Positions 2,427 through 54,308 of a stretch of 64,000 nt of DNA are shown here, piece after piece. Each line of letters opens with the position of its first letter. The first letter of the stretch is position 1. This stretch comes from Clostridia bacterium (GTDB lineage: Bacteria > Bacillota > Clostridia > Christensenellales > CAG-138): contig JAUNCT010000008.1 of the NCBI GenBank assembly GCA_030526425.1, positions 1 through 64,000 of the forward strand. Reading direction: 5' to 3'. The notes beneath the pieces were generated by a model. It saw only the letters and a list, made by a program, of their open reading frames with translations, had not been told where the DNA came from and did no database searches. A program made the translations under genes and the position numbers.

Positions 2427-3461
2427 GTGAAACAACTGAAATGGAAACGGTCCGTTTTGTCGGACATCGAGGGCATCTACTGCCTGGAACTGTTCCACAC
2501 GAACAAGGGCTTCCAAGTCGTTGCGGCGGGTGAGACCCACGGCGGCGTCTGCAAGAGCATCGATTTCGCGACGCGGAACGAAGAGCAGATCTGGGACGGT
2601 CCCGGCGGCTGCATGAACGTGAGCCAGCTGAACGAAGAGGGCTCGGTCGTCGCGATCCAGAACTTCTACAAGGGCTTCCAGTCGAAGGAAGCGCAGGTCG
2701 TGCGCGCGGATAAGGTCGGCGGCGAATGGAAGACCACCGTGCTCGCGGTCATCCCCTACCTGCACCGCAGCGGCGTCGTGCACACCGAAAGCGACGGCGA
2801 CTGGATCGTCTGCTCGCAGCTGTGCACCGAGCGCAACGACGCGGCGGATTGGTCCCACCCGGGCAAGATCCTCGCGGCAAAGGTCCCGGCGTTAGGCGAA
2901 CAGATCGAATTCCGCGTTCTTCAGGAAGGCGTCACCAAGAACCACGGCTTCTGGCAGGGCAAGCTCGACGGTGAGGAGGTCACCCTCATCGGCGGCACCG
3001 AGGGTCTGTTCCGCGTCCGTCCCCCGAAGGGCGGCAAGGACTGGCAGGTCGACAAGCTGCTCGACCGTGAAGTGAGCGATGTCGCGGTCGCGGACCTCGA
3101 CGGCGACGGGGAAGACGAACTCGTCGTGTTCGACGGCTTCCACGGTGAGCTCTGCACGGTGAACAAGCGCGTCGACGGCGTTTGGACCGTCGTTTACGAA
3201 CTGCCGATGCACTTCTCCCACGCCATCTGGGCGGGCGAGCTGCTCGGGCGCAACATGTTCGCCGTCGGTTACCGCAAGGAGGACGGAAAGTTCTATGTCG
3301 TCGAGCACACGGCGGAAGGCTACAAGGCGCACCTCATCGAAGAGGGCATCGCCCCCAGCAACTGCCGCGGCTTCGTTTACGAAGGCAAGTCTTACCTCGC
3401 GGTCGCGGCGCGCGACATGGATCAGGTCGTTTTGTTCGAGCTGACCGAAGAAGAAGCATAA
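2427..3461 (+). CDS. FG-GAP/VCBS-like beta-propeller protein, cytosolic (paralog A)
   Basis: 344 aa from a GTG start; GGAG nine bases upstream supports it. No signal peptide or membrane segment is visible, unlike most FG-GAP proteins. The sequence is made of short beta-strand repeats and carries a calcium-loop-like motif, DLDGDGEDEL, near residue 220, followed by FDGFHG. It is homologous to the product of 10464-11486: both share PYLHR-GIV, DWS-PG, NHGF, D-DGDG--EL---GFHG and WAGEL in the same order. Function is unknown. Its place as first gene of a catabolic operon suggests an enzyme (isomerase, epimerase or lactonase on a propeller fold) or a sugar-acid binding protein. Confidence 0.75.
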   Translation: MKQLKWKRSVLSDIEGIYCLELFHTNKGFQVVAAGETHGGVCKSIDFATRNEEQIWDGPGGCMNVSQLNEEGSVVAIQNFYKGFQSKEAQVVRADKVGGEWKTTVLAVIPYLHRSGVVHTESDGDWIVCSQLCTERNDAADWSHPGKILAAKVPALGEQIEFRVLQEGVTKNHGFWQGKLDGEEVTLIGGTEGLFRVRPPKGGKDWQVDKLLDREVSDVAVADLDGDGEDELVVFDGFHGELCTVNKRVDGVWTVVYELPMHFSHAIWAGELLGRNMFAVGYRKEDGKFYVVEHTAEGYKAHLIEEGIAPSNCRGFVYEGKSYLAVAARDMDQVVLFELTEEEA

Positions 3462-3503
3462 CCCCGTAAAACAATTACGGACCGAGATAAAAAGGAGAAA
3501 AGA

Positions 3504-4577
3504 ATGAACGTCACCGAGATCACCAAGGACGACTGGTATCACGCCATTTTCCCGGAGTGGGGTACCTGGCTGAATGAGGAGATCGACAGCACCGTTGTGG
3601 AGCCCGGCACGTTTGCCATGTGGTGGCTCGGCTGCACCGGTATCTGGCTGAAGACCGAAAACAACACGAACATCTGCATCGACTACTGGTGCGGACGCGG
3701 CAAGTACACGCAGGATTGGTCGAAGTACCCGCCCATCCTCGCGGGCCCGGATTTCCAGCTCAACCGCATGGTCGGCGGCAAGCAGCGCTTCCCCAACACG
3801 AAGATGATCCCCTGCGTGATGGATCCCTTCGAGGTGCAGCACATCGACGCGGTGTTCGTCACCCACAGCCACCGCGACCACATCGACCCCTATGTCACGG
3901 CGGCCATCCACAACAAGTTCCCCGATGTGCCGTTCTACGGACCGAAGTTCGTCACCGACACCTGGCGCGAGTGGGGTCTCCCCGAGGAGGTCATCCACAC
4001 CGTCAAGCCCGGCGATGAGATCCAGGTCAAGGACACCACGGTCGTCGTGCTCGATTCCTTCGACCGCACCGTGTTCCTCACCGCGCCGCGCTCCGGCGAC
4101 CTGGCGGGCTACTGCCCGGACGATATGGACATCCGTTCGGTCAACTACCTCGCGAAGACGCCCGGCGGTTCCTTCTACCACAGCGGCGACTCGCACTTCT
4201 CCAACTACTACCTGCGCCACGGCAAGCAGCACCGGATCGACGTTGCGATCGCTTCCTTCGGCGAGAACCCGCCGGGTCTCACCGACAAGATGACTGCGAG
4301 CGACGTGCTGCGCATGGCGGAAAACCTCCGCTGCAAGGTCATCATCCCCGTGCACTACGAGGTGTGGAGCAACATGATGGGCGACCCGCGTGAGGTCGAC
4401 GTGCTCTACGATATGCGCAAAGACCGGCTGGACTATCAGTTCAACCCCTTCATCTGGCAGGTCGGCGGCAAGTTCACCTTCCCGAACGATGTGGGCAAGC
4501 GCCACTTCATGTTCGAGCGCGGCTTCCAGACCGCCATGGAAGAGGAACCGAACCTCTACTACAAGTCTTTCCTTTGA
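3504..4577 (+). CDS. UlaG-like metallo-beta-lactamase fold lactonase
   Basis: 357 aa, close to the length of E. coli UlaG, L-ascorbate-6-phosphate lactonase. The metal site THSHRDHID (HxHxDH) lies near residues 118-126, with further ligands plausible in YHSGDSHFSN and IIPVHYE. The UlaG-type N-terminus (W-LGCTGIWLKTENNTNICIDYW) is present. A GGAG ribosome site precedes the ATG. In ula operons the substrate is phosphorylated by a PTS on entry. No PTS is present here and the neighbouring importer is a TctCBA system, so the true substrate is probably a different, perhaps unphosphorylated, sugar lactone. Family assignment is firm; substrate is not. Confidence 0.85.
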   Translation: MNVTEITKDDWYHAIFPEWGTWLNEEIDSTVVEPGTFAMWWLGCTGIWLKTENNTNICIDYWCGRGKYTQDWSKYPPILAGPDFQLNRMVGGKQRFPNTKMIPCVMDPFEVQHIDAVFVTHSHRDHIDPYVTAAIHNKFPDVPFYGPKFVTDTWREWGLPEEVIHTVKPGDEIQVKDTTVVVLDSFDRTVFLTAPRSGDLAGYCPDDMDIRSVNYLAKTPGGSFYHSGDSHFSNYYLRHGKQHRIDVAIASFGENPPGLTDKMTASDVLRMAENLRCKVIIPVHYEVWSNMMGDPREVDVLYDMRKDRLDYQFNPFIWQVGGKFTFPNDVGKRHFMFERGFQTAMEEEPNLYYKSFL

Positions 4578-4665
4578 TCCCATCGCCCGAGGGGCGAACG
4601 AACCGGTCCACGGCTGTCAGGCACGGAACCGCATACACAAAATCATTTAAAGGAGATCGAAACAA

Positions 4666-5628
4666 ATGAAGAAACTGTTCGCACTGGTCATGGCCATCGC
4701 GATGGTGCTGACCGCGACCTCCGCTTTCGCAGCGGGCTACCCCGAGAAGGACATCACCCTGGTCAACCCCTATGAGGCGGGCGGCACCTCCGACATCCCG
4801 AGCCGCATCTTCGCCGACTACATTTCCAACAACTGCGCCAACGGTCACCTGATGAACGTCAACTGCATCGGCGGTGCGGGCGGCGCTGTCGGCGCTCAGG
4901 CCGTTATGGATTCCCCCGCGGATGGTTACACCTTCCTCGTCGCTCCCGCGGGCTTCGCGATGAAGTACGCGCAGGGCACCCTCGACTGGACCTACGAAGC
5001 GTTCGATCCGGTCTGCCTGTATGTCACCTCCGTTCTGTCCATCGTCGTCCGTGCGGATTCTCCGTACCGGACCTATCAGGATGTCGTCGACGCCGCGAAG
5101 GCGAACCCCGGCACCGTGAAGATGGGCATCGCCACCGGCGGTCTGCCGCAGTTCTCCGTCTACGCGATGGAAGCACACGACGGCATCAAGTTCCAGACCA
5201 TCGACATCGGCGGTAACACCGTCAAGTCCGCTGAGCTCCTCGCGGGCCGCGTCGACGTCATGATCGATGCAGTCGGCGGCGTTCAGGAATACGTCAAGTC
5301 CGGCGACTTCCGTATCCTCACCGTCTTCTCCGCAGAGCGTCTGCCCTCCTTCCCCGAAGTTCCCACCATGCTCGAAGCCGGCTTCACCAGCGACGAAATG
5401 TCCGTTATGAACCAGGTCTTCGGCGTTTGGGCGCCCAAGGGCACGCCCGCTGAGGCGATCGCAGCCGTTTCCAAGATGTTCGGTGCGGCCGCTGCGGATG
5501 CAGGCGTCGTCGAGCAGCTCGGTGCGAAGAACTACACCGCGACCTACATGGATACCCCGGAATACACCGAGTACCTCGCCGCGATGTACACCAACTTCGT
5601 CAACTTCGCCAACGAGTTCATGAAATAA
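4666..5628 (+). CDS. tctC: Tripartite tricarboxylate transporter substrate-binding protein (TctC family)
   Basis: 320 aa. The N-terminus has a lysine start and hydrophobic core ending in ATSAFA, a good signal peptide with cleavage before AGYPEKD. The mature start (ITLVNPYEAGGTSD) is the usual TctC opening that lines the ligand pocket, and the length is normal. It captures a carboxylate, often a di- or tricarboxylate or sugar acid, outside the membrane for the TctAB channel encoded next. AAGGAGATCG lies upstream of the ATG. A very stable hairpin at 5642-5668 separates it from tctB. Confidence 0.93.
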   Translation: MKKLFALVMAIAMVLTATSAFAAGYPEKDITLVNPYEAGGTSDIPSRIFADYISNNCANGHLMNVNCIGGAGGAVGAQAVMDSPADGYTFLVAPAGFAMKYAQGTLDWTYEAFDPVCLYVTSVLSIVVRADSPYRTYQDVVDAAKANPGTVKMGIATGGLPQFSVYAMEAHDGIKFQTIDIGGNTVKSAELLAGRVDVMIDAVGGVQEYVKSGDFRILTVFSAERLPSFPEVPTMLEAGFTSDEMSVMNQVFGVWAPKGTPAEAIAAVSKMFGAAAADAGVVEQLGAKNYTATYMDTPEYTEYLAAMYTNFVNFANEFMK

Positions 5629-5641
5629 GTTCCGGTGACGG

Positions 5642-5668
5642 TCCCGCGGGGGAAACGCCCCCGCGGGA
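5642..5668 (+). promoter_or_regulatory. Hairpin between tctC and tctB
   Basis: An 11-base perfect stem (TCCCGCGGGGG/CCCCCGCGGGA) with a 5-base loop just after the tctC stop and no T-run. Such hairpins often stabilise the upstream message or reduce downstream expression, giving more binding protein than permease. The second tct operon has a comparable hairpin in the same place. Confidence 0.6.
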
Positions 5669-5732
5669 TACCCGCCTGACAGCTGCGGATCTCTGTCCGT
5701 ACTCAAGTCACCGTCCGAACAAAGCAAACCGC

Positions 5733-5749
5733 TCCGCCCGCCGGGCGGA
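5733..5749 (+). promoter_or_regulatory. Second short hairpin before tctB
   Basis: A 7-base stem (TCCGCCC/GGGCGGA) with a GCC loop, about 30 bases before the tctB start. It may affect mRNA stability or translation of tctB. Confidence 0.4.
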
Positions 5750-5778
5750 ACGGCACACTACTTTCGAGGAGAGAATAC

Positions 5779-6258
5779 ATGGGAGAAATCTTTTTTCTGG
5801 TCTTTTTGATGGCCGTTTGCGGACTCGGCTTCAACGAGTCCTTCTCTTGGAGGATTCTGAAATCGGATACCTCCGGCGGCGCCGCGTTCTGGCCCCGCAT
5901 CATCCTGGTCGCGCTGTTCGTCTGCTGCGCGATCCGTCTCATCACCGTGCTCATGGAGAAGAAGGACGAGCGCAAGAAGTTCGTCTTCCTCGACCTGTTC
6001 TACGGGCACCGCGGGGCGTTCCTTCTGAGCCTCGTGCTGTACTACATCGGCATCAAGTACCTCGGTTACCTGATCGCCACGGTCGTGTATCTGAACATCA
6101 TCGTCAACGTGATGTATAAATTCACCACGGGCAGCTTCGGCACGGCGAAGAACATCATCGTCCGTTTCGTCTGCCTGACCGCCGCGTCCTTCGCTGTGTA
6201 CTACTTCTTCGGTCAAGTGCTGCACATCATGGTCCCCGCGGGCATTTTCGGAATCTGA
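5779..6258 (+). CDS. tctB: Tripartite tricarboxylate transporter small membrane subunit (TctB family)
   Basis: 159 aa with about four hydrophobic segments, the usual size and layout for TctB. It follows tctC and is 11 bases before tctA, in standard order. GAGGAGAGAATAC supplies a ribosome site. It is the small, poorly conserved membrane partner of the TctA channel. Assignment rests on topology, length and context more than on motifs. Confidence 0.88.
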   Translation: MGEIFFLVFLMAVCGLGFNESFSWRILKSDTSGGAAFWPRIILVALFVCCAIRLITVLMEKKDERKKFVFLDLFYGHRGAFLLSLVLYYIGIKYLGYLIATVVYLNIIVNVMYKFTTGSFGTAKNIIVRFVCLTAASFAVYYFFGQVLHIMVPAGIFGI

Positions 6259-6269
6259 GGAGGTAAACG

Positions 6270-7802
6270 ATGCAAGATTTTCTGACTGCTGCCGTTTCGA
6301 TCCTGACGCCCGAGGTCCTCGCGCTGATCTTCGCGGGTACCTTCGTCGGTATCATCTTCGGTGCGATCCCGGGTCTCAACACCCCCATCGCGGTCGCGCT
6401 GCTGCTCCCCTTCGCGTATAAGCTCGAAACCATCCCCGCCGTGGCGCTGCTGCTCGGCGTTTACATGGGCGGTATCTCCGGCGGTCTCGTTTCGGCGATC
6501 CTGCTGCGCATCCCCGGCACCGCCGCCGCCATCGCGACGACCTTCGACGGTTACCCCATGACCCGTAGGGGCAAGGCCGCCGAGGCGCTCGCCATCGGTA
6601 CCTTCGGCTCCTTCCTCGGCGGCGCGTTCTCCGCGATCGTGCTCGCCTTCCTCGCGAAGCCCCTCACCCAGATCGCGCTGAAGTTCAGCCCCTGGGATTA
6701 CTTCGGTCTCATGCTCTTCGCGCTGTCGCTCGTTTCCGTGCTCGTCGGCAAGAACGTGCTCAAGGGCTACATGAGCATGCTGATCGGTCTGCTCATCTCC
6801 TGCATGGGTCTTTCCGCCATCGACGCGATGGCGAAGCGCTTCACCATGGGCATGCCCCAGCTGCAGGGCGGCATCTCGATGGTCATCCTCATCATCGGCA
6901 TCTACGCCATCCCGGAGATCCTCTCCGCGGCGGGCAAGCTGAATGAAGACACCACCACCGCCGAATTCGAGAAGAAGCGTTTCTACGTCCCCTCCAAGGA
7001 GAACCGCGGTCCCCGTTACTGGTGGCTGTGGCTCCAGTCCAGCATCATCGGCACGTTCATCGGCATCCTGCCGGGTCTCGGCAGCTCCACCGGCGCGATG
7101 CTCTCCTACTCCGCGGCGCAGAAGACCGTGAAGAGCGAGGTCGGCTACGGCAACGGCTGCGCCGAAGGCATCTACGCCTCCGAGGTCGCGAACAACGCGG
7201 TCACCGGCGGCGCGCTCATCCCCATGCTGAGCCTCGGCATCCCGGGTGACTCCGTCACCGCGGTCATCATGGCGGCGCTCATCCTCAAGGGCGTTCAGGT
7301 CGGTCCGCTGCTCTTCGTGACCAACGCGCCCCTCATCTACCAGATCGTTCTGGCGACCTTCTTCGCGAACCTCGCCATGTTCATCATCCAGAGCCTCGGC
7401 ATCCCGCTGTTCGCGAAGATCGTCAAGGTCCCGCGGTACATCCTGCTGCCGCTGATCGTGATGTGCATCGCCATCGGCTGCGTGTCCGTCAACAACCGCC
7501 TGTTCGACTTCGCGGTCGTGCTCGTGCTCGGTATCCTCGGCTACACGCTCGAAAAGAACGGCTACCCGCTGCCGCCGCTGCTCCTCGGCTTCATCCTCGG
7601 CAAGGATATGGAAACGTACCTCCGCCGCAGCCTGATGACCCACGGCACCTTCGGCGCCTGCATGTCGAACTTCAGCGTCGGCACCGTGCTCGTCGTGGTC
7701 GCCGCGCTCATCACCGTCGCCGCGCTCGTGATGAAGAACGAAGTCATCGCGAACAAGCTCTTCCCCAAGCGCGCGGCCAAGAAAGCCGCACAGGGTAAAT
7801 AA
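6270..7802 (+). CDS. tctA: Tripartite tricarboxylate transporter large membrane subunit (TctA family)
   Basis: 510 aa, full length, with about ten to twelve membrane segments. It carries the family glycine/proline signatures: GAIPGLNTPIAVALLLPF near residue 31, GILPGLGSSTGAMLSY near 265 and PMLSLGIPGDSVTAVI near 315. It forms the ion-coupled pore that takes ligand from TctC. AGGAGGTAAACG precedes the ATG. The epimerase gene starts three bases after its stop, so the two are almost certainly co-translated. Confidence 0.95.
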   Translation: MQDFLTAAVSILTPEVLALIFAGTFVGIIFGAIPGLNTPIAVALLLPFAYKLETIPAVALLLGVYMGGISGGLVSAILLRIPGTAAAIATTFDGYPMTRRGKAAEALAIGTFGSFLGGAFSAIVLAFLAKPLTQIALKFSPWDYFGLMLFALSLVSVLVGKNVLKGYMSMLIGLLISCMGLSAIDAMAKRFTMGMPQLQGGISMVILIIGIYAIPEILSAAGKLNEDTTTAEFEKKRFYVPSKENRGPRYWWLWLQSSIIGTFIGILPGLGSSTGAMLSYSAAQKTVKSEVGYGNGCAEGIYASEVANNAVTGGALIPMLSLGIPGDSVTAVIMAALILKGVQVGPLLFVTNAPLIYQIVLATFFANLAMFIIQSLGIPLFAKIVKVPRYILLPLIVMCIAIGCVSVNNRLFDFAVVLVLGILGYTLEKNGYPLPPLLLGFILGKDMETYLRRSLMTHGTFGACMSNFSVGTVLVVVAALITVAALVMKNEVIANKLFPKRAAKKAAQGK

Positions 7803-7805
7803 GCT

Positions 7806-8477
7806 ATGAAGAACCGTCCGGAATTCGCTCCCTCGCTCATCTGCATGGACCTGCTCCGTGCGGGTGCGCAGGCGGAGGTCATCAACGAAAGGGCCCAATG
7901 GTTCCACGCGGACCTGATGGACCTCGACTTTGTGGACAATGCGGGTCTGGGCATCCCCTTCGTGAAAGCGGTGGCGACCGTGGCGAAACGCCCGGTCGAC
8001 TGCCACCTCATGGTCCGTCAGCTCGACCGCTGGCTGCCCCGCGCGGCCATGGCGGGCGCAACGATGCTCACGCCCCACATCGAGGTGACGGGGGAGAAGA
8101 CCCCCGAGGTCCTCAACAAGATCGCGGCGCTCGGCTGCAAGGCGGGTCTCGCCATCAGCCCCGAAACGCCCGTGGGCGCGCTCGTGCCGTATCTCGACCG
8201 GGTCGAGAAGGTCACGGTCATGACCATCCGCCCCGGGTTCCCCGGCGCGCCGTTCCTTTGGGAAACGGTCGAAAAGATCCGCGAGCTCCGCGCGATGCGC
8301 GACGGGCGCCGCCTCGGTTTCCAGATCGAGATGGACGGATCCCTTTCGGAGGAAAACTTCAGCGCCCTGCGGGAAGCCGGCTGCGACGTGTTCGTCGCCG
8401 GCGCGGCGGCACTCTTCGCAAGAGACGACGACCTCGCGAAGGCGTTCGACAAAATGGAGGCCGCGTTCGGGCTTTGA
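7806..8477 (+). CDS. Ribulose-phosphate 3-epimerase family enzyme (AlsE-like)
   Basis: 223 aa TIM barrel. All four expected metal/acid positions are visible: FHADLMD (His, Asp), DCHLMV (His) and EMDGSLS (Asp), plus the phosphate-loop region IRPGFPGAPF and VAGAAALF. The variant motifs (ADLMDLDF, EMDGSL rather than VDGG) are closer to D-allulose-6-phosphate 3-epimerase and its relatives than to housekeeping Rpe. It probably interconverts ketose phosphates or a related ketose at C3. No sugar kinase is encoded in this block, so either one is supplied elsewhere or the substrate is unphosphorylated. Confidence 0.8.
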   Translation: MKNRPEFAPSLICMDLLRAGAQAEVINERAQWFHADLMDLDFVDNAGLGIPFVKAVATVAKRPVDCHLMVRQLDRWLPRAAMAGATMLTPHIEVTGEKTPEVLNKIAALGCKAGLAISPETPVGALVPYLDRVEKVTVMTIRPGFPGAPFLWETVEKIRELRAMRDGRRLGFQIEMDGSLSEENFSALREAGCDVFVAGAAALFARDDDLAKAFDKMEAAFGL

Positions 8478-8509
8478 TCACGGCAAAAGGAAAGGACGGT
8501 GGAGACCGC

Positions 8510-9316
8510 ATGCAAACCAAGATCATGACGGAGTTCAAATACGCCGACGTGGCGGGCCGCAGTTCCCACTTCCACAACTCGTACGAGGTCATGTACGTCG
8601 TCGGAGGACGCGCGACGATCACCGTCGGCGCCAACGTGTACAAGGTCGGCCCCGGGAAGCTGTTGTTCTTTTCGAACCTCGAGGAGCACCAAACGGACAT
8701 CACCGAAGCGCCGTTCTGCCGCTACTTCGTCAAGCTCGACCCCGCGCAGCTCAACCGCCGCCTCGGCGATATCTGGCAGCTGTCGGTGTTCAAAAACCGC
8801 TCGGAAGGTTTCATCCACTGGGTGGACCTTGCGGAGTATCACAAGACCGTGACCGAGCTGTTCCGCATGCTCGGTGAGGAATACGGCAAGGACGACGCCT
8901 ACACGGACGAGATCGTCGTTTCGGTGATCCGCCACCTGCTCGCCCTCTGCAGCCGCGTCGCCCCGGAGCGCTTCGCGTTCTCGGGCAGCGAGGAGCTCCA
9001 AAGCCTCGCCAAGGTCCAGCTGTGGATCGAACAGCACTTCACCGAAGACGTGAAGATCCACGAGATCACGGACAAGCTGCTGCTGAACCCCGCACAGCTC
9101 TCGCGCGCGTTCAAAAAGGCGACGGGCTACACGCCGAAACAGTACATGATGCTCAACCGCGTGGCGCGGGCGAAGGAACTGCTCATCCACACCGACCGCA
9201 GCGTGAACGACATCGGCACGAGCTCCGGCTTTCAGGACACCTCGAACTTCATCCGGTACTTCAAACAGGAAGAGGGCGTGACGCCCAACGAGTACCGGCG
9301 CATCAACAAACTGTAA
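8510..9316 (+). CDS. AraC family transcriptional regulator
   Basis: 268 aa. The ATG at 8510 is chosen because GGTGGAG lies just upstream and the protein then starts at the cupin. The N-terminal sensor domain has the cupin-like SHFHNSYEVMYVVGG and KVGPGKLLFF. The C-terminal pair of helix-turn-helix motifs occupies roughly residues 165-265, ending in the family signature GFQDTSNFIRYFKQEEGVTPNEYR. It sits inside the catabolic block and is the likely ligand-responsive regulator of the operon. Confidence 0.9.
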   Translation: MQTKIMTEFKYADVAGRSSHFHNSYEVMYVVGGRATITVGANVYKVGPGKLLFFSNLEEHQTDITEAPFCRYFVKLDPAQLNRRLGDIWQLSVFKNRSEGFIHWVDLAEYHKTVTELFRMLGEEYGKDDAYTDEIVVSVIRHLLALCSRVAPERFAFSGSEELQSLAKVQLWIEQHFTEDVKIHEITDKLLLNPAQLSRAFKKATGYTPKQYMMLNRVARAKELLIHTDRSVNDIGTSSGFQDTSNFIRYFKQEEGVTPNEYRRINKL

Positions 9317-9389
9317 GACTCCGGCCACCGCGGTTCCGCGGCGCCGAATCTCATAAACCCAACATGATTTCAATCGGAGGAATCGAACA

Positions 9390-10460
9390 ATGAGTGGCAA
9401 ACTGATCGAAATGAGAGAGAAATTCCCGAACACCCACGTGTGGGTGGACTCCTGCTCCAAGGCGGACCTCGAGTACGGCATGTCCGTCGGCTGCGTCGGC
9501 GCGACGACCAACCCCGTCATCGTCAACCAAGTCCTCGGCAGCGAGATGCCGGAATGGAAGGACACCATCACCGAGCTGTACAAGAGCAACCCCGAGGCGA
9601 CCGAGGACGACGTCGCCTGGATGCTGATCGAGAAGATGGGTCTGCGCGGCTGCGAGATGCTCCGCCCCGTCTACGAGAAGGAGAACGGCGCCTGCGGCAA
9701 GATCTCCATGCAGACCAACATCAAGAACTACCACAACGCCGAGAAGATGGCGGCACAGGCCGTCGGCTTCTCCAAGCTCGCGGACAACATCATGGTCAAG
9801 ATGCCCATCAACGAGGCCGGTCTGAAGGCCTTCGAAGAGGCGACCTACCGGGGCGTCAGCATCAACGCGACCGTTTCCTTCTCCGTCGCGCAGGCAGTGG
9901 CTCTGGCGGAAGCCGTCGAGCGCGGCATGAAGCGCCGTGAGGCAGAGGGCAAGGACACCTCGAAGATGACCCCCGTCTGCACGATCATGATCGGCCGTAT
10001 CGACGATTGGCTCAAGAAGGCCGTCGCCCGCGATTCCGTCGCGATCGACCCCGAAGCCCTCGAATGGGCGGGCGTCGCGGTGTTCAAGAAGGCTTACAAG
10101 ATCTTCAAGGAGCGCGGCTACCGCACCCGCCTGCTGACCGCGGCTTACCGCAACATCCACCACTGGCAGCAGTTCATCGGCGGCGACGTCTCCATGACCA
10201 TTACCTCCAAGTGGCTGAAGGTCTACGACAACAGCAACGTCGAGATCCGCAACTACATGGATGACCCGGTGCCGCAGCAGTGGCTGGATCAGCTCGACAA
10301 GCTGCCGGATTTCCACCGCGCTTACGACGAGGACGGCATGACCGTCGCCGAGTTCGAGTACTACGGCGCGTTCGTCACCTGCCTCGAAGGCTTCTTCAAG
10401 GGCTATGAGCAGCTGCTGCAGCAGGTCCGCCCGATGCAGTTCGGCAGCGTCCTGAAGTAA
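9390..10460 (+). CDS. Transaldolase family protein
   Basis: 356 aa. Class I aldolase/transaldolase features: an acidic start WVDSCSKADLEYG, GATTNPVIV near residue 37, the putative Schiff-base lysine in IMVKMPIN near residue 138, and INATVSFS. It is longer than fructose-6-phosphate aldolase and short transaldolases (about 220 aa) and nearer the length of classical transaldolase, but the sequence is a distinct branch. It probably cleaves or transfers a three-carbon dihydroxyacetone unit from the ketose made by the neighbouring epimerase. AATCGGAGGAATC precedes the start. Confidence 0.85.
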   Translation: MSGKLIEMREKFPNTHVWVDSCSKADLEYGMSVGCVGATTNPVIVNQVLGSEMPEWKDTITELYKSNPEATEDDVAWMLIEKMGLRGCEMLRPVYEKENGACGKISMQTNIKNYHNAEKMAAQAVGFSKLADNIMVKMPINEAGLKAFEEATYRGVSINATVSFSVAQAVALAEAVERGMKRREAEGKDTSKMTPVCTIMIGRIDDWLKKAVARDSVAIDPEALEWAGVAVFKKAYKIFKERGYRTRLLTAAYRNIHHWQQFIGGDVSMTITSKWLKVYDNSNVEIRNYMDDPVPQQWLDQLDKLPDFHRAYDEDGMTVAEFEYYGAFVTCLEGFFKGYEQLLQQVRPMQFGSVLK

Positions 10461-10463
10461 GAA

Positions 10464-11486
10464 GTGAAACTCACAAGACACGCGCTCGCACCGCTGGAAA
10501 AGTGCTATGCGGTGCGTTCCATGAAGCTCTGCGGGCGGGAGAAACACCTGTTCGCGAGCGAAGTCCGCGCGGCGTGCTACTGCTTCGACGCGGAAACGGG
10601 CGAACGGGAGACCGTGTGGGAGAACGAGGGCGGCACCATGGGCATGGAGCCGCTGCCGGGGTGTGAGGACAGGTTTCTCGCCATCCGCGGGTTCTTCCCG
10701 CCGTTCGCCGCGGCGGATTCCGACATCGCGCTCGTCACCAAAACCGAGGAAGGCTTCACCGTCGAACCGTATCTTCAGGTGCCCTACCTGCACCGTTTCG
10801 GGATCGTCACCACGGACCGCGGTTCGTGGCTGGTGCTTGCGGTATTGTGCGAGACCAAGGCGAACAAAGACGATTGGTCGAGCCCCGGCTACGTGGCGGC
10901 GGCACCGCTCGAAAACGGCAAGCCCGGAACCCCGGTGCGCCTGCTCGGCGGGCAATTCCACAACCACGGCTTTGCCGGGTGCACCTTCCGCGGGAACGCG
11001 GCGGTGCTCACAAGCTCCGACGCCGGCGCTTACGCCTTCACGGCACCGCACGGCGATACCGCCGAATGGAAGGTGGAACGGCTCACCGATGTGCCGACCG
11101 GCGAAGTCCGCGTTTGCGACATGGACGGCGACGGGGTGGAGGAGCTCATCACCCTCGAGGGCTTCCACGGCACGGACCTGAAGGTTTGGCATTTGGACGA
11201 AAACGGAAAGTACGCCCCCGTGTGGCAGTACCCCGAACCGCTCGCCTTCGTGCACCCGCTGTGGGCGGGCGAGCTCTGGGGCAAGATGTGCGGCATCTCC
11301 GGCGGACGCCGCGAGAACGGACCGCTGTTCCTCTTCCGGTATGAGGACGGCGCGTACCGCACGGAGCTCATCGAAGACAAGGCATTCTCCGCCAACGTCA
11401 CCGTGGCGGAGCGCAACGGAAAGCAGGTCATCCTCTCCGCGAACCACGGGCAGAACACCTGCGTGATGTACACCAACGAAGATTAA
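10464..11486 (+). CDS. FG-GAP/VCBS-like beta-propeller protein, cytosolic (paralog B)
   Basis: 340 aa from a GTG, only three bases after the transaldolase stop, so probably translationally coupled. No signal peptide. It has CDMDGDGVEELITLEGFHG near residue 217, and PYLHRFGIV, DWSSPGY, NHGF and WAGELWG match paralog A in order. Overall identity is moderate, so the duplication is not recent. Two divergent copies kept in one operon suggest two related substrates or subunits of one complex. Function unknown. Confidence 0.72.
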   Translation: MKLTRHALAPLEKCYAVRSMKLCGREKHLFASEVRAACYCFDAETGERETVWENEGGTMGMEPLPGCEDRFLAIRGFFPPFAAADSDIALVTKTEEGFTVEPYLQVPYLHRFGIVTTDRGSWLVLAVLCETKANKDDWSSPGYVAAAPLENGKPGTPVRLLGGQFHNHGFAGCTFRGNAAVLTSSDAGAYAFTAPHGDTAEWKVERLTDVPTGEVRVCDMDGDGVEELITLEGFHGTDLKVWHLDENGKYAPVWQYPEPLAFVHPLWAGELWGKMCGISGGRRENGPLFLFRYEDGAYRTELIEDKAFSANVTVAERNGKQVILSANHGQNTCVMYTNED

Positions 11487-11510
11487 AAATTTGTCAGGAG
11501 GACAAGATCA

Positions 11511-12647
11511 ATGGAATACGAACTCCCGAGCAAGCAGACAGCAGTCGTGCTCACCGGAACGAACGGACAGTATGAGATCCGTCACGACGTCGACGTTCCG
11601 AACGACCCCGGTTTCCAGGAGGTCATCGTCAAGGTCATGGCGATCGCCATCTGCGGTACCGACCCCAAGCTTCTCAAGGGCAAGCCCTATCACTACTGCC
11701 CGGATTCCTACCCCTTCATCATCGGTCACGAGTGGTCCGGTGTGGTCGTGAAGGTGGGTCCCGGCGTATTCAACCTGAAGGTCGGCGACCGCGTCGCGGG
11801 CGAAGCGCACCGCGGCTGCGGCGTTTGCGAAAACTGCAAAGCGGGCCGTTACTCCCTGTGCCTGAACTACGGCAAGGACGAGACCGGTCACCGTCACTAC
11901 GGCTTCACCACCGAGGGCGCATACCAGCAGTACATCCGTTACAGCTGCGGTTCCCTCACCGTGCTGCCCGATAACGTCAGCTTCGCGGAAGCGGCCATGT
12001 GCGACACCGCAGGCGTTGCCTTCCACGGTCTCGAGCGCGGCGGCGTGAAGCCCGGCGGAACCTACTGCGTCATCGGACCCGGCCCCATCGGCTTCATGGC
12101 GATGAAGATCGCCCGCGCGCTGGGTGCGGCACACGTCATCTGCATCGGCCGCGGCGCGCGCCTCAAGGCAGCCGTCGAGCTGGGTGCGTGCGATCCCGAT
12201 ATGGCGATCGATTTCGAGACCCAGGATCCGGTCGCGGAGGTTCTGCGCATCACCGGTGGCGTCGGCGCGGACAACGTCTGCGAAGCTTCCGGTGCGCACG
12301 ATGCGCTCAACAAGGCGGTCGCGATGTGCCGTAAGGGCGGCAGCATCGTTCTGCTCGGCACCCCGCCGGAATCCCACCGCGAGGAGATCCTGCTCAAGCC
12401 CATCACCTTCAAAGAGCTTTCCGTCGTCGGCAGCCGCGGCAATCCCAACGCGACCCAGGCGGTCGTCAACCTCATGGGCAGCGGTCAGCTCCGCGTCAAG
12501 GAAATGATCACCCACACCTACCCGCTGACCTCCTTCGCCGAGGGTATCGACACCTTCGTCAACCGCAAGGAAGGCTGCGTCAAGGTCGTGTTCTTCCCGA
12601 ACGAGATCCCCGAAGAGTACCTGCCCTCCGGCAAGGTCCAGCGCTGA
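11511..12647 (+). CDS. Zinc-dependent MDR alcohol/polyol dehydrogenase
   Basis: 378 aa medium-chain dehydrogenase. The catalytic zinc site is suggested by AICGTDPKLL (Cys) and IIGHEWSG (His-Glu). The structural zinc cysteines are in GCGVCENCKAGRYSLC. The Rossmann glycine motif is VIGPGPIGFMAMK. Closest in layout to sorbitol, threonine or galactitol-type dehydrogenases. It would oxidise or reduce a polyol or sugar derivative with NAD(P). AGGAGGACAAG precedes the ATG. Substrate cannot be read from sequence. Confidence 0.88.
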   Translation: MEYELPSKQTAVVLTGTNGQYEIRHDVDVPNDPGFQEVIVKVMAIAICGTDPKLLKGKPYHYCPDSYPFIIGHEWSGVVVKVGPGVFNLKVGDRVAGEAHRGCGVCENCKAGRYSLCLNYGKDETGHRHYGFTTEGAYQQYIRYSCGSLTVLPDNVSFAEAAMCDTAGVAFHGLERGGVKPGGTYCVIGPGPIGFMAMKIARALGAAHVICIGRGARLKAAVELGACDPDMAIDFETQDPVAEVLRITGGVGADNVCEASGAHDALNKAVAMCRKGGSIVLLGTPPESHREEILLKPITFKELSVVGSRGNPNATQAVVNLMGSGQLRVKEMITHTYPLTSFAEGIDTFVNRKEGCVKVVFFPNEIPEEYLPSGKVQR

Positions 12648-12658
12648 ACCCAACGGTG

Positions 12659-12681
12659 ACCGGCCGCGTACTGCGGCCGGT
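12659..12681 (+). terminator. Hairpin after the MDR dehydrogenase gene
   Basis: A perfect 9-base GC stem (ACCGGCCGC/GCGGCCGGT) with a GTACT loop, followed by a weak T-rich tail (TTTCCGTGATTT). It may cause partial termination before the transporter gene. Confidence 0.45.
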
Positions 12682-12701
12682 TTCCGTGATTTCCGAAAAC
12701 T

Positions 12702-13628
12702 ATGTCGAAAAGCAAATGGATCATGCTGCTGATCCTGCCGGTCATTTGGGGCAGCTACTACGTTGCCTCGCACAGCGCGCTCGCTTACATGTCCACCTTC
12801 TCCGTGGGCGTGGCGATCCGCGGGCTCACGCTCGTGCTGCTGACGGCGATCATGGCGTGCAGAAAGGAACTCGGTTCCCTGGTGCGCCTCAAGCACATCT
12901 GGAAGTGGCTGCTGGCGATCGGTCTGATGGGCTTTCTGCTCGACACGACCGCCTTCATCGGGCTCAAGCTTTCCCCGGCGGGCATCGGCACGGCGCTGCT
13001 CAAGTGCGACGTGCTGTTCGTCAACCTGATCTCCGCGTGGCTCTACCATGAGCGCTTCACGAAGACCGACTGGGCGCTGACGCTCGTGATGCTGTTCGGC
13101 GTGTTCCTGGTGCTGGGCATCGACTTCCGCCACCTCGAACTGTTCAACCCGGGCAACATCTTCTTCATCCTGAGCGCGCTGTTCGTTTCGGTCAACGCCT
13201 TCCTCATCAAGAAGGTGCAGCACCACCCCGTGAACCCCGGCAGCGATATGGTCATCGCCTACTACAACAACCTCGTGACGATGATCTTGTTCCTCACCGT
13301 CGCGTTCCCGATGGGACAGATGGCGGAGTTCTCCCGCATCGCGGGGAACAAAAGCCTCACGGTCGCGCTGCTGCTCTCGGGTCTCGGGCAGACGCTCATC
13401 TACGTGGTCTACTACCACAACCTCCGCCGCAACCCCGTGTGGCTGGTGAAGGTCATCCTGCTGCTGATGCCGGTGTTCTCGGCGTTCCTCGGTTTCGTGC
13501 TCTTCCGCGAGACGATGACCGCGGTGCAGCTCATCGGCGTGGCGGTCGTACTCGCCGGCGCGATGGCGATGCTCATCCTCACCCACAAGCGGGACGCCGC
13601 GAAGCAGACCGCCCCGGCGGAACAATGA
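12702..13628 (+). CDS. EamA/DMT family transporter
   Basis: 308 aa with about ten hydrophobic segments in two repeated halves, the typical ten-TM drug/metabolite transporter. SKSKWIMLLILPVIWGSYYV opens the first EamA domain, and the second begins near residue 150. It has a basic C-terminus. Its place between two dehydrogenase genes of the catabolic block suggests export of a pathway product or uptake of a substrate. Direction and substrate are unknown. Confidence 0.85.
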   Translation: MSKSKWIMLLILPVIWGSYYVASHSALAYMSTFSVGVAIRGLTLVLLTAIMACRKELGSLVRLKHIWKWLLAIGLMGFLLDTTAFIGLKLSPAGIGTALLKCDVLFVNLISAWLYHERFTKTDWALTLVMLFGVFLVLGIDFRHLELFNPGNIFFILSALFVSVNAFLIKKVQHHPVNPGSDMVIAYYNNLVTMILFLTVAFPMGQMAEFSRIAGNKSLTVALLLSGLGQTLIYVVYYHNLRRNPVWLVKVILLLMPVFSAFLGFVLFRETMTAVQLIGVAVVLAGAMAMLILTHKRDAAKQTAPAEQ

Positions 13629-13701
13629 CGGGAGGACCTTCCGGTCCGCCGCAAAACGCAACAAACAAACCAACCTGTGTCATTAAGAAAGAAGGATCGT
13701 T

Positions 13702-14820
13702 ATGGTTGAATTCTCTTACTGCATGCCCTCGAAGATCGTTCTCGGTACGGGCAGCACCAAAAAACTGCAGGATCACATCGTCGGCAACAAGGTCCTCATG
13801 ATCTGCGACCCGTTCCTCTACAAGATCGGCACCGCGGAGAAGATCGGTTCCGTGCTGACCGGCTGCGAAGTCGCTTACTTCCACGAGATCGAGCCCAACC
13901 CCTCCTGCGAAAGCGTCGACGCCGCGGCGGCTGCCGCGCGTGAGCTCGGCGCGACGACCGTCATCGGTCTCGGCGGCGGCAGCTCCATGGACGTTTCGAA
14001 GATCGTTTCCTGCCTCGTGACCATGGAGGGCAGCATCTACGATTACTACAGCGGCGGCACGAAGAAGCTCGGTCACCGCACGACCCGCCTCATCTGCATC
14101 CCGACCACCGCGGGCACGGGCAGCGAGGTCACCAACGTCGGCGTGTTCACCAACCGCAACACCCACATCAAGATGCCCTTCGTCACCGATGAGTTCTGGC
14201 CGGACGTCGCGCTGCTCGACCCCGAGCTGACCTACAGCCTGCCGCAGGGCGTCACCGCCTCCACCGGTATGGACGCGTTCTGCCACGCCATCGAGGCGTA
14301 CTGGAACAAGGCGAGCCAGCCCATCTGCGACGCGATCGCGGCGGATGCGATGGAGATGATCCTCGAGAACATCAAGAACGCCTACGACAACGGTTCCGAC
14401 CCGGTCGCCCGTGAGCACATGCAGCTCGCGAGCCTCATGGCGGGCGTCGCGTTCAGCCAGACCCGCACCACCGGTATCCACGCGCTGAGCTTCCCGCTCA
14501 CCACCGAGTTCGGCGCGCCGCACGGCATCGCCTGCTCGATTACCCTGCCCGCGTTCATCCGCATCTCCGGCGAACAGGCGGCGGACAAGATGGCGAAGCT
14601 CTGCAAGCGCCTCGGCTATGCCGATGTCAACGCGCTGGCGGACGCCGTCGAAGCGCTGATGGTCTCGATGAAGATGCCCGTGCGCCTCAGTGAGCTCGGC
14701 GTCAAGGAATCCGACCTCGACCACCTGACCGAAGTCGGTCTCGGCGCGGCGATCATCCACCTGACCCCCGCCGAAATGAACCCGACCACCGTGCGCGCAC
14801 TGCTCGCGAGCATTCTGTAA
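13702..14820 (+). CDS. Iron-containing alcohol dehydrogenase
   Basis: 372 aa group III (Fe-dependent) dehydrogenase. It shows the NAD-binding [12 protein letters not shown] near residue 90, [12 protein letters not shown] near residue 134, and the metal-ligand region with DALLDPE-type Asp, [19 protein letters not shown] and GAPHGIA. Length is normal. AAGAAAGAAGGATCG precedes the ATG. It probably reduces an aldehyde released by the upstream aldolase-type enzyme, for example lactaldehyde or glycolaldehyde to a diol. The exact substrate is inferred only from context. A strong terminator follows. Confidence 0.9.
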
Positions 14821-14833: not shown

Positions 14834-14871
14834 AGACCCGGTACCGCACCCGCGGCGCCGGGTCTTTTTTT
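14834..14871 (+). terminator. Rho-independent terminator of the catabolic block
   Basis: The stem AGACCCGG/CCGGGTCT is followed by a run of seven or more T. It ends the co-directional block that starts at 2427. Confidence 0.85.
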
Positions 14872-15189: not shown

Positions 15190-15218
15190 TTGACAGATTC
15201 TATCAATCGGAATATCAT
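15190..15218 (+). promoter_or_regulatory. Sigma-A type promoter of the arabinose operon
   Basis: TTGACA at 15190-15195, a 17-base spacer, and TATCAT at 15213-15218. Transcription would begin about 55 bases before the binding-protein start. Confidence 0.7.
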
Positions 15219-15276
15219 GAAATCGGTCGGACACACCGGCTCACTTCTCAACAATCACATAGGAGGAACACATCTC

Positions 15277-16233
15277 ATGAAGAAACTGCTTGCTGTCATT
15301 CTCTGTCTGGGTCTCATGCTCACCGCGTCGATCGCGCTGGCCGACAACATCACCGTCGGCATCATCAACAACCCGCCGTCCGAGTCGGGCTACCGCGAAG
15401 CGAACGTCAAAGATTTCGAAACCGTGTTCTCCGCCGAAAACGGCTATACCGCAAAAGCTTTCTACTCCCTGAAGAACGATGAGCAGCTTGCCCAGGCGAG
15501 CCAGTTCATCACCGACGGTGTGGATTACCTGCTCGTCTCCGCAGCGGAGACCACCGGCTGGGACGCCGTCCTGACCGCAGCGCAGGAAGCGGGCATCCCC
15601 GTGTTCCTCTTCGACCGTATGATCGACTGCGACGAAGCGCTCTATGAGGCTGCCGTCGTTTCCGACATGCGCAACCAGGGCATCGGCGCCGTCGAATGGC
15701 TGAAGGCGCAGGGTCTCGAAGCTTACAACATCATCCACATCCAGGGCGCCATGGGTTCCGACGCGCAGATCGGCCGTACCGAACCCTTGAAGGAACAGGC
15801 TGATGCAGACGACGCTTGGAAGATCGTCGTGCAGCAGACCGCCACTTGGGACGAAGCGGAAGCGAAGAACATCACCGAAGCCGCCATCAACTCCGGTGAA
15901 GCGTTCAACGTCATCTACGCCGAGAACGACGGTATGGCACGCGGTGCCGTTGCCGCCCTCGACGAGCACGGCATCACCCACGGCGTCAACGGCGACGTCA
16001 TCATCATCGGCTTCGACTGCAACCGCTGGGCACTCCGTCAGGTCATCCTCGGCAACTGGAACTACGACGGTCAGTGCAGCCCCTTCCAGGCGCAGGTCAT
16101 CAGCGACATGATCCAAAAGCTCCAGGCGGGCGAGACCCTCGAAACCAAGATCGTCATCTCCAATGAGCGCGGCTTCGACGCGAAGACCATCACCGAAGAA
16201 GACATCGCGACCTACGGTCTCGGCGAAGAGTAA
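15277..16233 (+). CDS. Sugar ABC transporter substrate-binding protein (YtfQ/RbsB type)
   Basis: 318 aa. The ATG at 15277 is preceded by AGGAGGAACA and begins a signal peptide that ends TASIALA. The mature protein opens ITVGIINNPPSESGYREAN, typical of YtfQ-like galactofuranose/arabinose binding proteins of the periplasmic binding protein type I fold. FDRMIDC, the QGAMGSDAQIGR loop and IIGFDCNRWAL are also characteristic. It binds a furanose or pentose outside the cell for the ABC complex encoded downstream. The araA, kinase and araD genes that follow point to L-arabinose. Confidence 0.92.
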   Translation: MKKLLAVILCLGLMLTASIALADNITVGIINNPPSESGYREANVKDFETVFSAENGYTAKAFYSLKNDEQLAQASQFITDGVDYLLVSAAETTGWDAVLTAAQEAGIPVFLFDRMIDCDEALYEAAVVSDMRNQGIGAVEWLKAQGLEAYNIIHIQGAMGSDAQIGRTEPLKEQADADDAWKIVVQQTATWDEAEAKNITEAAINSGEAFNVIYAENDGMARGAVAALDEHGITHGVNGDVIIIGFDCNRWALRQVILGNWNYDGQCSPFQAQVISDMIQKLQAGETLETKIVISNERGFDAKTITEEDIATYGLGEE

Positions 16234-16275
16234 CAACGAAAAGACCTTGAAAGGTCTCATCGGCTGAACCATCCG

Positions 16276-16311
16276 GCGCGGTGTGCGCAGTGGCGCACAC
16301 CGCGCTTTTTT
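16276..16311 (+). terminator. Strong terminator or attenuator after the binding-protein gene
   Basis: A perfect 13-base stem (GCGCGGTGTGCGC and its complement), an AGTG loop, then six T. It lies between the binding-protein gene and its ATPase gene. Partial read-through would give more binding protein than membrane complex. Confidence 0.9.
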
Positions 16312-16365
16312 CCGAATCGTCAGCACTCCACGGGCGCGAGGCGCCCCGGGTACGGGAGGAAACCC

Positions 16366-17874
16366 ATGGAACAGAACATCGTCTTGCAAGCAAGGGGGAT
16401 CTCGAAGAGCTTCCCCGGCGTCAAAGCGCTGCAGCACGTCGATTTCACCCTGAGAAGGGGAGAGATCCACGCCCTGATGGGCGAGAACGGCGCAGGCAAG
16501 AGCACGCTCATCAAGGTGCTCACGGGCGTTTACACGCGCGATGAGGGCACCGTTTTTCTGGACGGCGTCGCAAAGGACGTGGCGATCCGCTCGCCGCAGG
16601 ATGCCCAGAACGCGGGCATCAGCACCGTCTATCAGGAGATCACGCTTTGTCCCAACCTGACCGTCGCCGAGAACATGTTCATCGGCCGCGACAAAAAGCT
16701 CTTGGTCTCCCATAAGGAACGCGAAAGAAAGGCCGACGAGATCCTCGGGCGGCTGAACATCCCCGCGCGCGCGGCGCAGCAGCTCGGCAAATGCTCTCTC
16801 GCCGTGCAGCAGATGATCGCCATCGCGCGGGCGGTCGATATGCAATGCAAAGTCCTCATCCTCGACGAGCCGACCTCTTCGCTCGACGACAACGAGGTCG
16901 AAATGCTGTTCACCCTGATGCGCAGGCTCAGGGGCGAGGGCGTCGGCATCATCTTCGTGACGCACTTCCTCGAGCAGGTCTACGCCGTGTGCGACCGCAT
17001 CACGGTGCTGCGCAACGGCGAGCTCGTCGGCGAGTACGAGATCCAAAACCTGCCCGCGGTGGAGCTGGTCTCCAAAATGATGGGCAAGGAGCTCGACGAC
17101 GTGACGGGCATGGAGAAGCGCGAACTCGCGCCGGAGGACGGCGAAACGCCCGTGTACAACGCGGAAGGGCTCTCGAGCGCGAACGGCGTGCGTCCGTTCG
17201 ATTTCCGCATCCGCGCGGGCGAGGTCAACGGCTTCTCGGGTCTGCTCGGCTCGGGGCGCAGCGAAAGCGTGCGCGCCATCTTCGGCGCGGATAAGGTCAC
17301 GGGCGGCACCGTCACCATCGAGGGCAAGCCCGTGAAGGTCAAAAACCCCATCGACGCGATGCGCGGCGGCATCGGCTACCTGCCCGAGGACCGCAAGGAC
17401 GACGGCATCATCGCCGACCTGTCCGTGCGCGACAACATCATCCTCGCGCTGCAGGTGCTGCGCGGCATGGGGCACCCCATCCCGAAGGCGGAGGCGGAAA
17501 AATTCGCCGACGAGTACATCAAGGCGCTGTCGATCAAGACCGCCTCGGCGGATACCCCGGTCGGCTCGCTCTCCGGCGGCAACCAGCAGAAGGTCATCCT
17601 CGCACGGTGGCTTCTGACGCACCCGAAATACCTCATCCTCGACGAGCCGACGCGCGGCATCGACGTCGGCACCAAAACGGAGATCCAGCGCCTCGTGCTG
17701 AAGCTTGCGGAGGAGGGCATGAGCGTGACCTTCATCTCCAGTGAGATCGAAGAGATGCTGCGCACCTGCTCGCGCCTCATCGTCATGCGCGACCGCAAGA
17801 TCGTCGGCGAGCTGAAGGGCAGCGAGCTCACGCAGGACGAGGTCATGCGGACCATCGCGGGAAGGAGTGAATGA
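16366..17874 (+). CDS. Sugar ABC transporter ATP-binding protein (RbsA/AraG/YtfR type)
   Basis: 502 aa with two tandem ATPase domains, normal for monosaccharide ABC importers. Domain 1 has Walker A GENGAGKST near residue 40 and LILDEPTSSLD. The first signature loop is degenerate (KCSLAVQQ). Domain 2 has a degenerate P-loop (GLLGSGRSES), signature SLSGGNQQK and LILDEPTRGIDVGTK. This asymmetry is usual for the family. It powers import from the YtfQ-like protein. The stop overlaps the next start (ATGA). Confidence 0.95.
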   Translation: MEQNIVLQARGISKSFPGVKALQHVDFTLRRGEIHALMGENGAGKSTLIKVLTGVYTRDEGTVFLDGVAKDVAIRSPQDAQNAGISTVYQEITLCPNLTVAENMFIGRDKKLLVSHKERERKADEILGRLNIPARAAQQLGKCSLAVQQMIAIARAVDMQCKVLILDEPTSSLDDNEVEMLFTLMRRLRGEGVGIIFVTHFLEQVYAVCDRITVLRNGELVGEYEIQNLPAVELVSKMMGKELDDVTGMEKRELAPEDGETPVYNAEGLSSANGVRPFDFRIRAGEVNGFSGLLGSGRSESVRAIFGADKVTGGTVTIEGKPVKVKNPIDAMRGGIGYLPEDRKDDGIIADLSVRDNIILALQVLRGMGHPIPKAEAEKFADEYIKALSIKTASADTPVGSLSGGNQQKVILARWLLTHPKYLILDEPTRGIDVGTKTEIQRLVLKLAEEGMSVTFISSEIEEMLRTCSRLIVMRDRKIVGELKGSELTQDEVMRTIAGRSE

Positions 17875-19984: not shown

Positions 19985-19994
19985 CGGAACCGTT

Positions 19995-20020
19995 GGGGAC
20001 CCGTCTCGTGGATGGGCCCC
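19995..20020 (+). promoter_or_regulatory. Hairpin between permease and araA genes
   Basis: About ten base pairs (GGGG-CCCGTC with GATGGG-CCCC, one bulge) with a TCGTG loop and only a weak T-rich tail. It is a possible leaky terminator separating transport from catabolic genes. Confidence 0.45.
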
Positions 20021-20128
20021 CGGACGCCGTTCTTTCTGTTCCCTTTGCGGGAAGAAAGGCGTAAAATACACAAGGGGGAAGCACAACGCATTCTTGATTT
20101 CCGTGAACAAGGAAGGAGTTTTTTCAAA

Positions 20129-21601: not shown

Positions 21602-21710
21602 CGACCGCACAACGGAAGGGCGGCGCCCTGCGCACCGCCCCGTGATACAACGGATTCCGGCCGGGTCCCGGCCGGAATCTTTCCTATCAGCGACGGAAAG
21701 AGGAAAAACA

Positions 21711-23279: not shown

Positions 23280-23289
23280 GGGCACGCGC

Positions 23290-53828: not shown

Positions 53829-53843
53829 AGTTGCGTTACCTCC

Positions 53844-54308
53844 TCAGAACATAAAGGACAGCAGTCCGTCGGGAAGCATGACGTACAGCAGCTTCGCGAA
53901 AATGAAATATACGATGACCGGAACGACGATGCTGACGATCGCCATCTGGACCCAACGGCGGTTCTCCATCAGGTACATGCCCGCGAACAGCAGCCACACC
54001 GTGTCGAGGATGAAGCCGAGCTTGTTGAACAGCAGGCAGTAGAGGAGGAACAGAACGATGGCGATGAAACCGCGTTTCATTCCGGGGGTGAGCGAAAGGG
54101 CGGCGCCTTCCTCCTTCATCTTACCGAGAAGGGATGCGACGATGAGGATGAGGCTGAGCACCGCGGTGAAGCCCGCGATGATCATGGGGAAGAACTTCGC
54201 GCCGGGGTCGGTCGGCGAATGGTTCTCCGGGAATTTCGAAGCGGTCACGAGGACGTAACCGGAAATGGCGAGGCCGATGAGACCCGCCGCGACATTCGTT
54301 TTCTTCAT
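53844..54308 (-). CDS. tctB: Tripartite tricarboxylate transporter small membrane subunit (TctB family), second system
   Basis: 154 aa with about four membrane segments (AAGLIGLAISGYVLVTAS first). AAKFFPMIIAG and the C-terminal VPVIVYFIFAKLLYVMLPDGL fit TctB. It lies 15 bases before tctA and after a hairpin that follows tctC. Assigned from topology and context. Confidence 0.88.
   Translation of the reverse strand: MKKTNVAAGLIGLAISGYVLVTASKFPENHSPTDPGAKFFPMIIAGFTAVLSLILIVASLLGKMKEEGAALSLTPGMKRGFIAIVLFLLYCLLFNKLGFILDTVWLLFAGMYLMENRRWVQMAIVSIVVPVIVYFIFAKLLYVMLPDGLLSFMF

Follow-up and report, generated by a model that had tools for sequence, protein, structure and literature searches.

In Escherichia coli, L-ascorbate is utilised through the ula operon (UlaABCDEFG), in which decarboxylation of the 3-keto acid is carried out by UlaD, an enzyme of the OMPDC fold. 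A 2011 survey of UlaG contexts reported the ulaABCDEF unit in all cases and noted that in Catonella morbi ulaF is followed by an uncharacterised, duplicated gene (PMC3219644). A further point of reference is aldos-2-ulose dehydratase (AUDH), a recognised VCBS-type seven-bladed propeller (PMC8023676). Here, we describe a block of 12 genes at positions 2427–14820 of a 64,000-nucleotide stretch of contig JAUNCT010000008.1 from a Clostridia bacterium; this whole stretch is termed the window. Judged by its sequence, the block is a real, conserved sugar-acid operon related to the bacterial breakdown of vitamin C. It encodes a UlaG-type lactonase, a TctCBA importer, and two paralogous β-propellers, prop1 and prop2 (29% identity), and it is rather probable that it represents a variant of the ascorbate (ula) pathway in which a propeller takes over the decarboxylation performed by UlaD. 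The propellers are the most informative genes of the operon, and the complementary distribution of propeller and UlaD is the most valuable result.

Pfam and NCBIfam contain no family that the propellers match above cut-off, only a weak FG-GAP repeat being detected, and a sequence-profile search of the propeller against the PDB returned nothing meaningful. Among 391 genomes of the window's class, with the window's own genome included among the positives, propeller relatives occur in 13, and a separate search for UlaG recovered exactly the same 13. The other 12 genomes hold 13 such loci, and at every one of them no more than about 6 kb separates UlaG and the propeller. An ascorbate-type phosphotransferase system (PTS) is present at eight of these loci (L034, L035, L039, L041, L043, L044, L045, and L046). 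By gene content, most of the UlaG–propeller loci are otherwise complete ula operons (UlaG, ascorbate PTS, UlaE, and UlaF), in which the propeller is the sole unexplained gene. The cleanest case, L034, comprises a DeoR regulator, UlaG, IIA, IIC, IIB, the propeller, UlaF, and UlaE, i.e., the E. coli set with the propeller for UlaD. Its UlaG, IIC, UlaF, and UlaE exceed the cut-offs of their NCBIfam models, the best matches of IIA and IIB, below cut-off, are subunits of the ascorbate PTS, and the propeller, without a family, occupies the position held by UlaD in Aerococcus.

The remaining loci are more varied. An FGGY kinase lies near L036, L040, and L042, and L040 has a sugar ABC importer as well. 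L037, which reads TctCBA–UlaG–UlaF–AP_endonuc_2 epimerase–propeller–transketolase halves, is the window operon's nearest cousin of the Tct type, and L038 lies on a 3-kb contig that is too short to type. Both belong to genome G402, which carries two UlaG–propeller loci, L037 being of the Tct type; the UlaG of L038 groups among UlaD-type sequences in the UlaG tree. Split transketolase genes lie downstream in the propeller-type ula loci L035, L044, and L037, the first two also having an FSA-type transaldolase. The propeller was found in none of the plasmid records; a Salmonella conjugative plasmid (L080) carries a compact ula-like set of PTS, HUMPS-family decarboxylase, UlaG, and PRD regulator.

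The Pfam family PF00215 covers both UlaD and PyrF. In the 13 propeller genomes, one strong PF00215 match was found in each of 12 and none in the thirteenth, and UlaD was found in none. NCBIfam assigned eight of these 12 matches to PyrF, and the remaining four align to those eight at 49–76%; beyond these, there were an over-threshold match in G402, which is an RPE by sequence, and a few sub-threshold ones. In the window's genome (72% complete), PyrF is the only PF00215 match, and the window itself holds no UlaD. NF009832 is also absent from three relatives of the operon (genomes G669, G670, and G671). A tblastn search with five UlaD-type queries detected no UlaD in 17 propeller loci, the window included. 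In records from Pantoea, Vibrio, Aerococcus, Levilactobacillus, Enterococcus, Salmonella, and Klebsiella, the same search found UlaD at each of the eight UlaG loci, and the propeller is absent from every one of these. Within the window's class, no UlaG locus was found to contain UlaD.

Because this contrast might reflect phylogeny, 398 genomes were searched across the phylum. Six UlaG genomes were found outside the class: four have the propeller and no UlaD, and two have UlaD (over cut-off) and no propeller. A single family contains one genome of each kind, namely G789 (propeller) and G917 (UlaD). Overall, the propeller was counted at 21 loci and UlaD at 10, with zero overlap (Fisher p 2e-8, a value overstated owing to relatedness). 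On the UlaG tree, about three changes between the propeller and UlaD states are required, and well-supported branches force at least two of them; replacement is therefore recurrent. Together, the same-family pair and the UlaG tree rule out phylogeny as the sole cause of the exclusion. From this genomic complementarity, the propeller most likely performs UlaD's decarboxylation. The broader proposal, on which we lean only slightly to the positive side, is that the unnamed propeller family represents a 3-keto-aldonate(-6-phosphate) decarboxylase of a new fold class and that, in the ascorbate pathways of Firmicutes, it and UlaD have been exchanged several times, the window operon being a kinase-less, Tct-fed branch that uses two propellers.

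The operon is conserved as a unit. The original prediction described one-directional genes with short gaps, and 12 open reading frames (ORFs), all on the + strand and separated by 3–150 nt, bear this out. The gene families that it named were recovered with Pfam and NCBIfam for UlaG, TctCBA, RPE/AlsE, AraC, TAL_FSA, Zn-MDR, EamA, and Fe-ADH. Its two propeller paralogs are also real, although it gave them no role, and its proposal of a lactone or sugar-acid catabolic operon is supported; no description of such an operon was found. It had suggested checking the neighbourhood in relatives, where a lack of conservation would have counted against its proposal; the neighbourhood proved to be conserved. 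Scanning genome contigs with prop1 as a single-protein query yielded three relatives, all uncultured-bacterium contigs (L049, L050, and L051 of G669, G670, and G671), and the order prop1–UlaG–TctC–TctB–TctA–AlsE–AraC–TAL–prop2–MDR is identical in all three. DMT follows in two of them, G669 and G670, in which FeADH (75–77% identity) ends the block; in G671, the genes after MDR are unrelated to the operon. Protein identities to the relatives range from about 48% (prop2) up to 86% (MDR, 84–86%). Gene order shared with three other genomes far exceeds chance, and the block is therefore a conserved unit. In genomes of the window's order that have the TAL gene only, TAL is an orphan with a neighbourhood that is not shared; hence, the operon is patchy yet travels as a block. 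Four such solitary TAL relatives (L010, L011, L012, and L013) show 54–58% identity and have unrelated neighbours.

The window UlaG reaches 517.9 bits against NF008688, the ascorbate-6-phosphate lactonase model with a cut-off of 306. It shares 59% identity with the UlaG encoded by the full ula operon L034, its nearest relatives are ula operons, and the UlaG tree places L037 in one group with the window and the three relatives of the operon (support 99/98). The original prediction saw a misfit with the ascorbate route; this is not supported, since UlaG matches ascorbate-6-phosphate lactonase at the family level and UlaG–propeller pairs are mostly found in ula operons. Its statement that kinase and PTS genes are missing is correct for the unit itself, but an FGGY kinase and an AraD/UlaF-type epimerase are encoded 7–9 kb downstream, in a separate arabinose-type unit. 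By tblastn, none of the ascorbate PTS proteins UlaA, UlaB, and UlaC is encoded in the whole window, TctCBA being present instead; UlaE is likewise absent from the window, and a UlaF-type protein occurs only in that separate unit.

On these genes, the route of the operon is to be regarded as ascorbate-like rather than unrelated to ascorbate, and the operon would be a Tct-fed variant. For the specific substrate, the best guess is ascorbate or a close 3-keto-aldonate or lactone. TctCBA would import an organic-acid anion (ascorbate, a close lactone, or a 3-keto-sugar acid), and UlaG would open the lactone, giving a 3-keto-aldonate. This β-keto acid would be decarboxylated to a pentulose (phosphate) by the propeller, an axial metal polarising the 3-keto group. 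The AlsE-like enzyme may then epimerise a ketose phosphate, the TAL-family enzyme may cleave a ketose phosphate or transfer a three-carbon unit, and redox balance would be the task of the MDR and Fe dehydrogenases. Alternatively, the operon may act on a substrate unrelated to ascorbate, such as another aldonate or an inositol-type ketose, with UlaG and the propellers merely recruited. This would fit an operon that lacks PTS, UlaE, and UlaF and adds AlsE and TAL, an MDR whose nearest model is IolM, and a TAL relative located beside an iol cluster in Clavibacter. However, UlaG passes the ascorbate-6-phosphate lactonase model, and UlaF, an AP_endonuc_2 epimerase, and the propeller are all retained at L037, the other locus of the Tct type. 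We consider this alternative a real contender of lesser probability; it competes with the substrate part of our explanation and not with the propeller's role in ula operons.

The later steps depend on the AlsE-like and TAL-family enzymes. The former scores 227.3 bits against NF007266, below the cut-off of 271 for AlsE (D-allulose-6-phosphate 3-epimerase), and keeps the metal ligands of the RPE family. Alignment of TAL to TalB and FSA, whose sequences were checked against known active-site numbering, revealed that the Schiff-base Lys, the TTNP motif, and both phosphate-binding Arg residues of TalB are kept. Two other TalB residues differ, Glu96 being replaced by Gln, which the aldolase FSA also has, and Phe178 by Met, so the active site is not of the TalB type. 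Given these active-site features, phosphorylated ketoses are likely substrates of both enzymes, and a phosphorylation step would then belong to the route; FGGY kinases occur elsewhere in all four genomes that have the Tct-type two-propeller operon. Three-carbon cleavage by the TAL-family enzyme is plausible. TAL might instead merely complete the pentose phosphate pathway, like the FSA-type transaldolase and transketolase of PTS-type loci, rather than being a pathway-specific cleavage enzyme. Such a role would be in line with the transketolase halves at L035, L044, and L037, the FSA-type TAL at the first two, and the retained phosphate-binding Arg, whereas the divergence of the window TAL, its FSA-like Gln at the Glu96 position, and the lack of a transketolase in the unit argue against it, leaving this role possible but not the favoured one. 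A sulfo-transaldolase route was rejected, as the match of TAL to the sulfofructose transaldolase BmSF-TAL is weak (E 4e-6), and no sulfoquinovose genes were recognised in the unit. On a Clavibacter plasmid (L047), a relative of the window TAL (42% identity) adjoins the inositol (iol) cluster.

Structural models provide a further view of the propellers. AlphaFold (AF2) models of prop1 and the L034 propeller have pLDDT (predicted local distance difference test) values of 94.4 and 93.7, respectively. In both cases, the best match is AUDH, with Z-scores of 35.7 (335 residues, 2.7 Å) and 35.0 (339 residues, 2.7 Å), and the next folds score 29.9 and 29.8. The 344-aa prop1 ORF is modelled as a propeller from end to end and lacks the cupin and lectin domains of AUDH. 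Across 21 propellers, 29 positions are invariant, several His and Arg among them; the set includes H113, R114, D141, W142, N172, H173, D223, D225, E231, H239, H265, and R283 (prop1 numbering). In the model, several of the invariant residues are located at the starts of successive strands. Claesson et al. are said to have shown in 2012 that the AUDH propeller holds a Zn-dependent dehydratase site, the catalytic Zn of which reportedly polarises the keto group beside the attacked carbon. Such polarisation of a keto group by a metal is also a requirement of a β-keto-acid decarboxylase.

The kinship to AUDH, with its reported Zn-dependent dehydratase site, might also suggest that the propeller is a dehydratase or isomerase with AUDH-like chemistry, operating in a modified pathway that leaves decarboxylation to another enzyme or to a spontaneous reaction. 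Yet most propeller operons still have UlaE and UlaF, implying that L-xylulose-5-phosphate is still made, and the exact complementarity with UlaD would have to be a coincidence; we therefore hold this explanation to be unlikely. More improbable still is a propeller without catalytic function that serves UlaG as a partner in assembly, metal loading, or sensing, with UlaD replaced by an unlinked enzyme: the one-to-one linkage to UlaG is strict and binding is the role of many VCBS propellers (PMC8023676), but the propeller is missing at ten UlaG loci exactly where UlaD is present, and its invariant His, Arg, Asp, and Asn look catalytic.

Several points weigh against a decarboxylating propeller in an ascorbate-like operon. 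The identity of the propellers to AUDH is just 12–13%. The window operon has two propellers, one of which may catalyse another reaction, and it has AlsE and TAL in the stead of UlaE and UlaF. TAL and AlsE seem to need phosphorylated sugars, and the unit contains no kinase. Finally, UlaD could in principle have been lost owing to a different, unlinked decarboxylase.

A decarboxylating propeller in the position of UlaD would clearly exemplify non-orthologous displacement, the two folds being unrelated. It would also give a function to an unnamed protein family and account for the ability of these Firmicutes to ferment vitamin C or related lactones. The ula operons of Clostridia were previously interpreted as complete (PMC3219644), yet those examined here lack UlaD, and the uncharacterised gene after ulaF in Catonella morbi may be a propeller. 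No paper tying the propeller to 3-keto-gulonate decarboxylation or the ascorbate pathway was found in a search that left subscription journals mostly uncovered, so an earlier description is possible. The swap of propeller for UlaD, repeated across Firmicutes, is easy to test.

Table 1. Genes of the operon and its closing hairpin in the window.
Feature	Position	Strand	Evidence
prop1, cytosolic seven-bladed VCBS/AUDH-type β-propeller; proposed UlaD replacement (putative decarboxylase)	2427–3461	+	homology scans, AlphaFold model
UlaG-type lactonase of the metallo-β-lactamase fold	3504–4577	+	NF008688 equivalog; PDB 2wyl, E 7e-138
TctC, substrate-binding protein	4666–5628	+	PF03401
TctB, small membrane subunit	5779–6258	+	PF07331
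TctA, large membrane subunit	6270–7802	+	PF01970, 461 bits
AlsE-like enzyme (ribulose-phosphate 3-epimerase family) with conserved metal ligands	7806–8477	+	NF007266, below cut-off
AraC-family regulator, start ATG 8510	8510–9316	+	PF12833, PF02311
TAL, divergent TAL_FSA Schiff-base aldolase/transaldolase, 356 aa	9390–10460	+	PF00923, 129.9 bits; alignment
prop2, second propeller paralog, invariant residues kept	10464–11486	+	paralogy to prop1
Zn-dependent MDR dehydrogenase	11511–12647	+	nearest models IolM and Tdh, both far under cut-off
DMT/EamA transporter	12702–13628	+	PF00892
Iron-type alcohol dehydrogenase (Fe-ADH), last operon gene	13702–14820	+	PF00465/PF25137
Terminator-like hairpin and T-run, closing the unit	14848–14863	+	

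Beyond the hairpin, a promoter-like site (15190–15218) precedes a separate L-arabinose-type unit (15253–23979) with a sugar ABC importer, AraA, an FGGY kinase, and an AraD/UlaF-type epimerase (23287–23979). The L-arabinose isomerase AraA scores 725.8 bits against NF002795, over the cut-off, and the FGGY kinase has a weak XylB score. Membership of these genes in the operon was ruled out by the hairpin, the promoter-like site, and the absence of the arabinose unit beyond the operon in G669 and G670. On the 5′ side, positions 1–1800 of the window, just before the operon, contain nested repeats, both direct and inverted, in degenerate form (227 nt at 88%, 106 nt at 93%, and inverted arms of 46 nt at 98%). 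A second TctA/TctC set is located at 52311–55462 on the − strand, and a large AraC-type regulator gene at 55687–57936 on the + strand. No tRNAs or Rfam matches were found in the window.

Among known systems, tripartite tricarboxylate transporters are represented in the window by all of TctA, TctB, and TctC with Pfam matches. Unlike the known transporters, TctCBA here and in L037 is linked to UlaG, and no relevant TctC–UlaG link was found in a literature search. BmSF-TAL and FSA share the TAL_FSA superfamily and the Schiff-base Lys with the window TAL, which is larger (356 aa) and forms a divergent subfamily. AUDH of Phanerochaete (PDB 4a7k/4a7y/4a7z) shares the seven-bladed VCBS propeller fold and is the best structural match to the propeller models. 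However, it is fungal, and its solved chains run to about 880 residues and include additional domains, whereas the protein described here is a lone cytosolic propeller of 340 aa. UlaD occupies the same operon position as the propeller and the two are mutually exclusive, yet a TIM barrel (OMPDC fold) and a β-propeller are unrelated folds. With the E. coli ula operon, the window operon has the UlaG-type lactonase in common, and PTS, UlaE, and UlaF are also kept in related Clostridial loci. In place of UlaD, PTS, and UlaE, it has a propeller, TctCBA, and an AlsE-like enzyme, respectively; the unit is without UlaF, has AraC instead of UlaR, and adds TAL, MDR, DMT, and FeADH.

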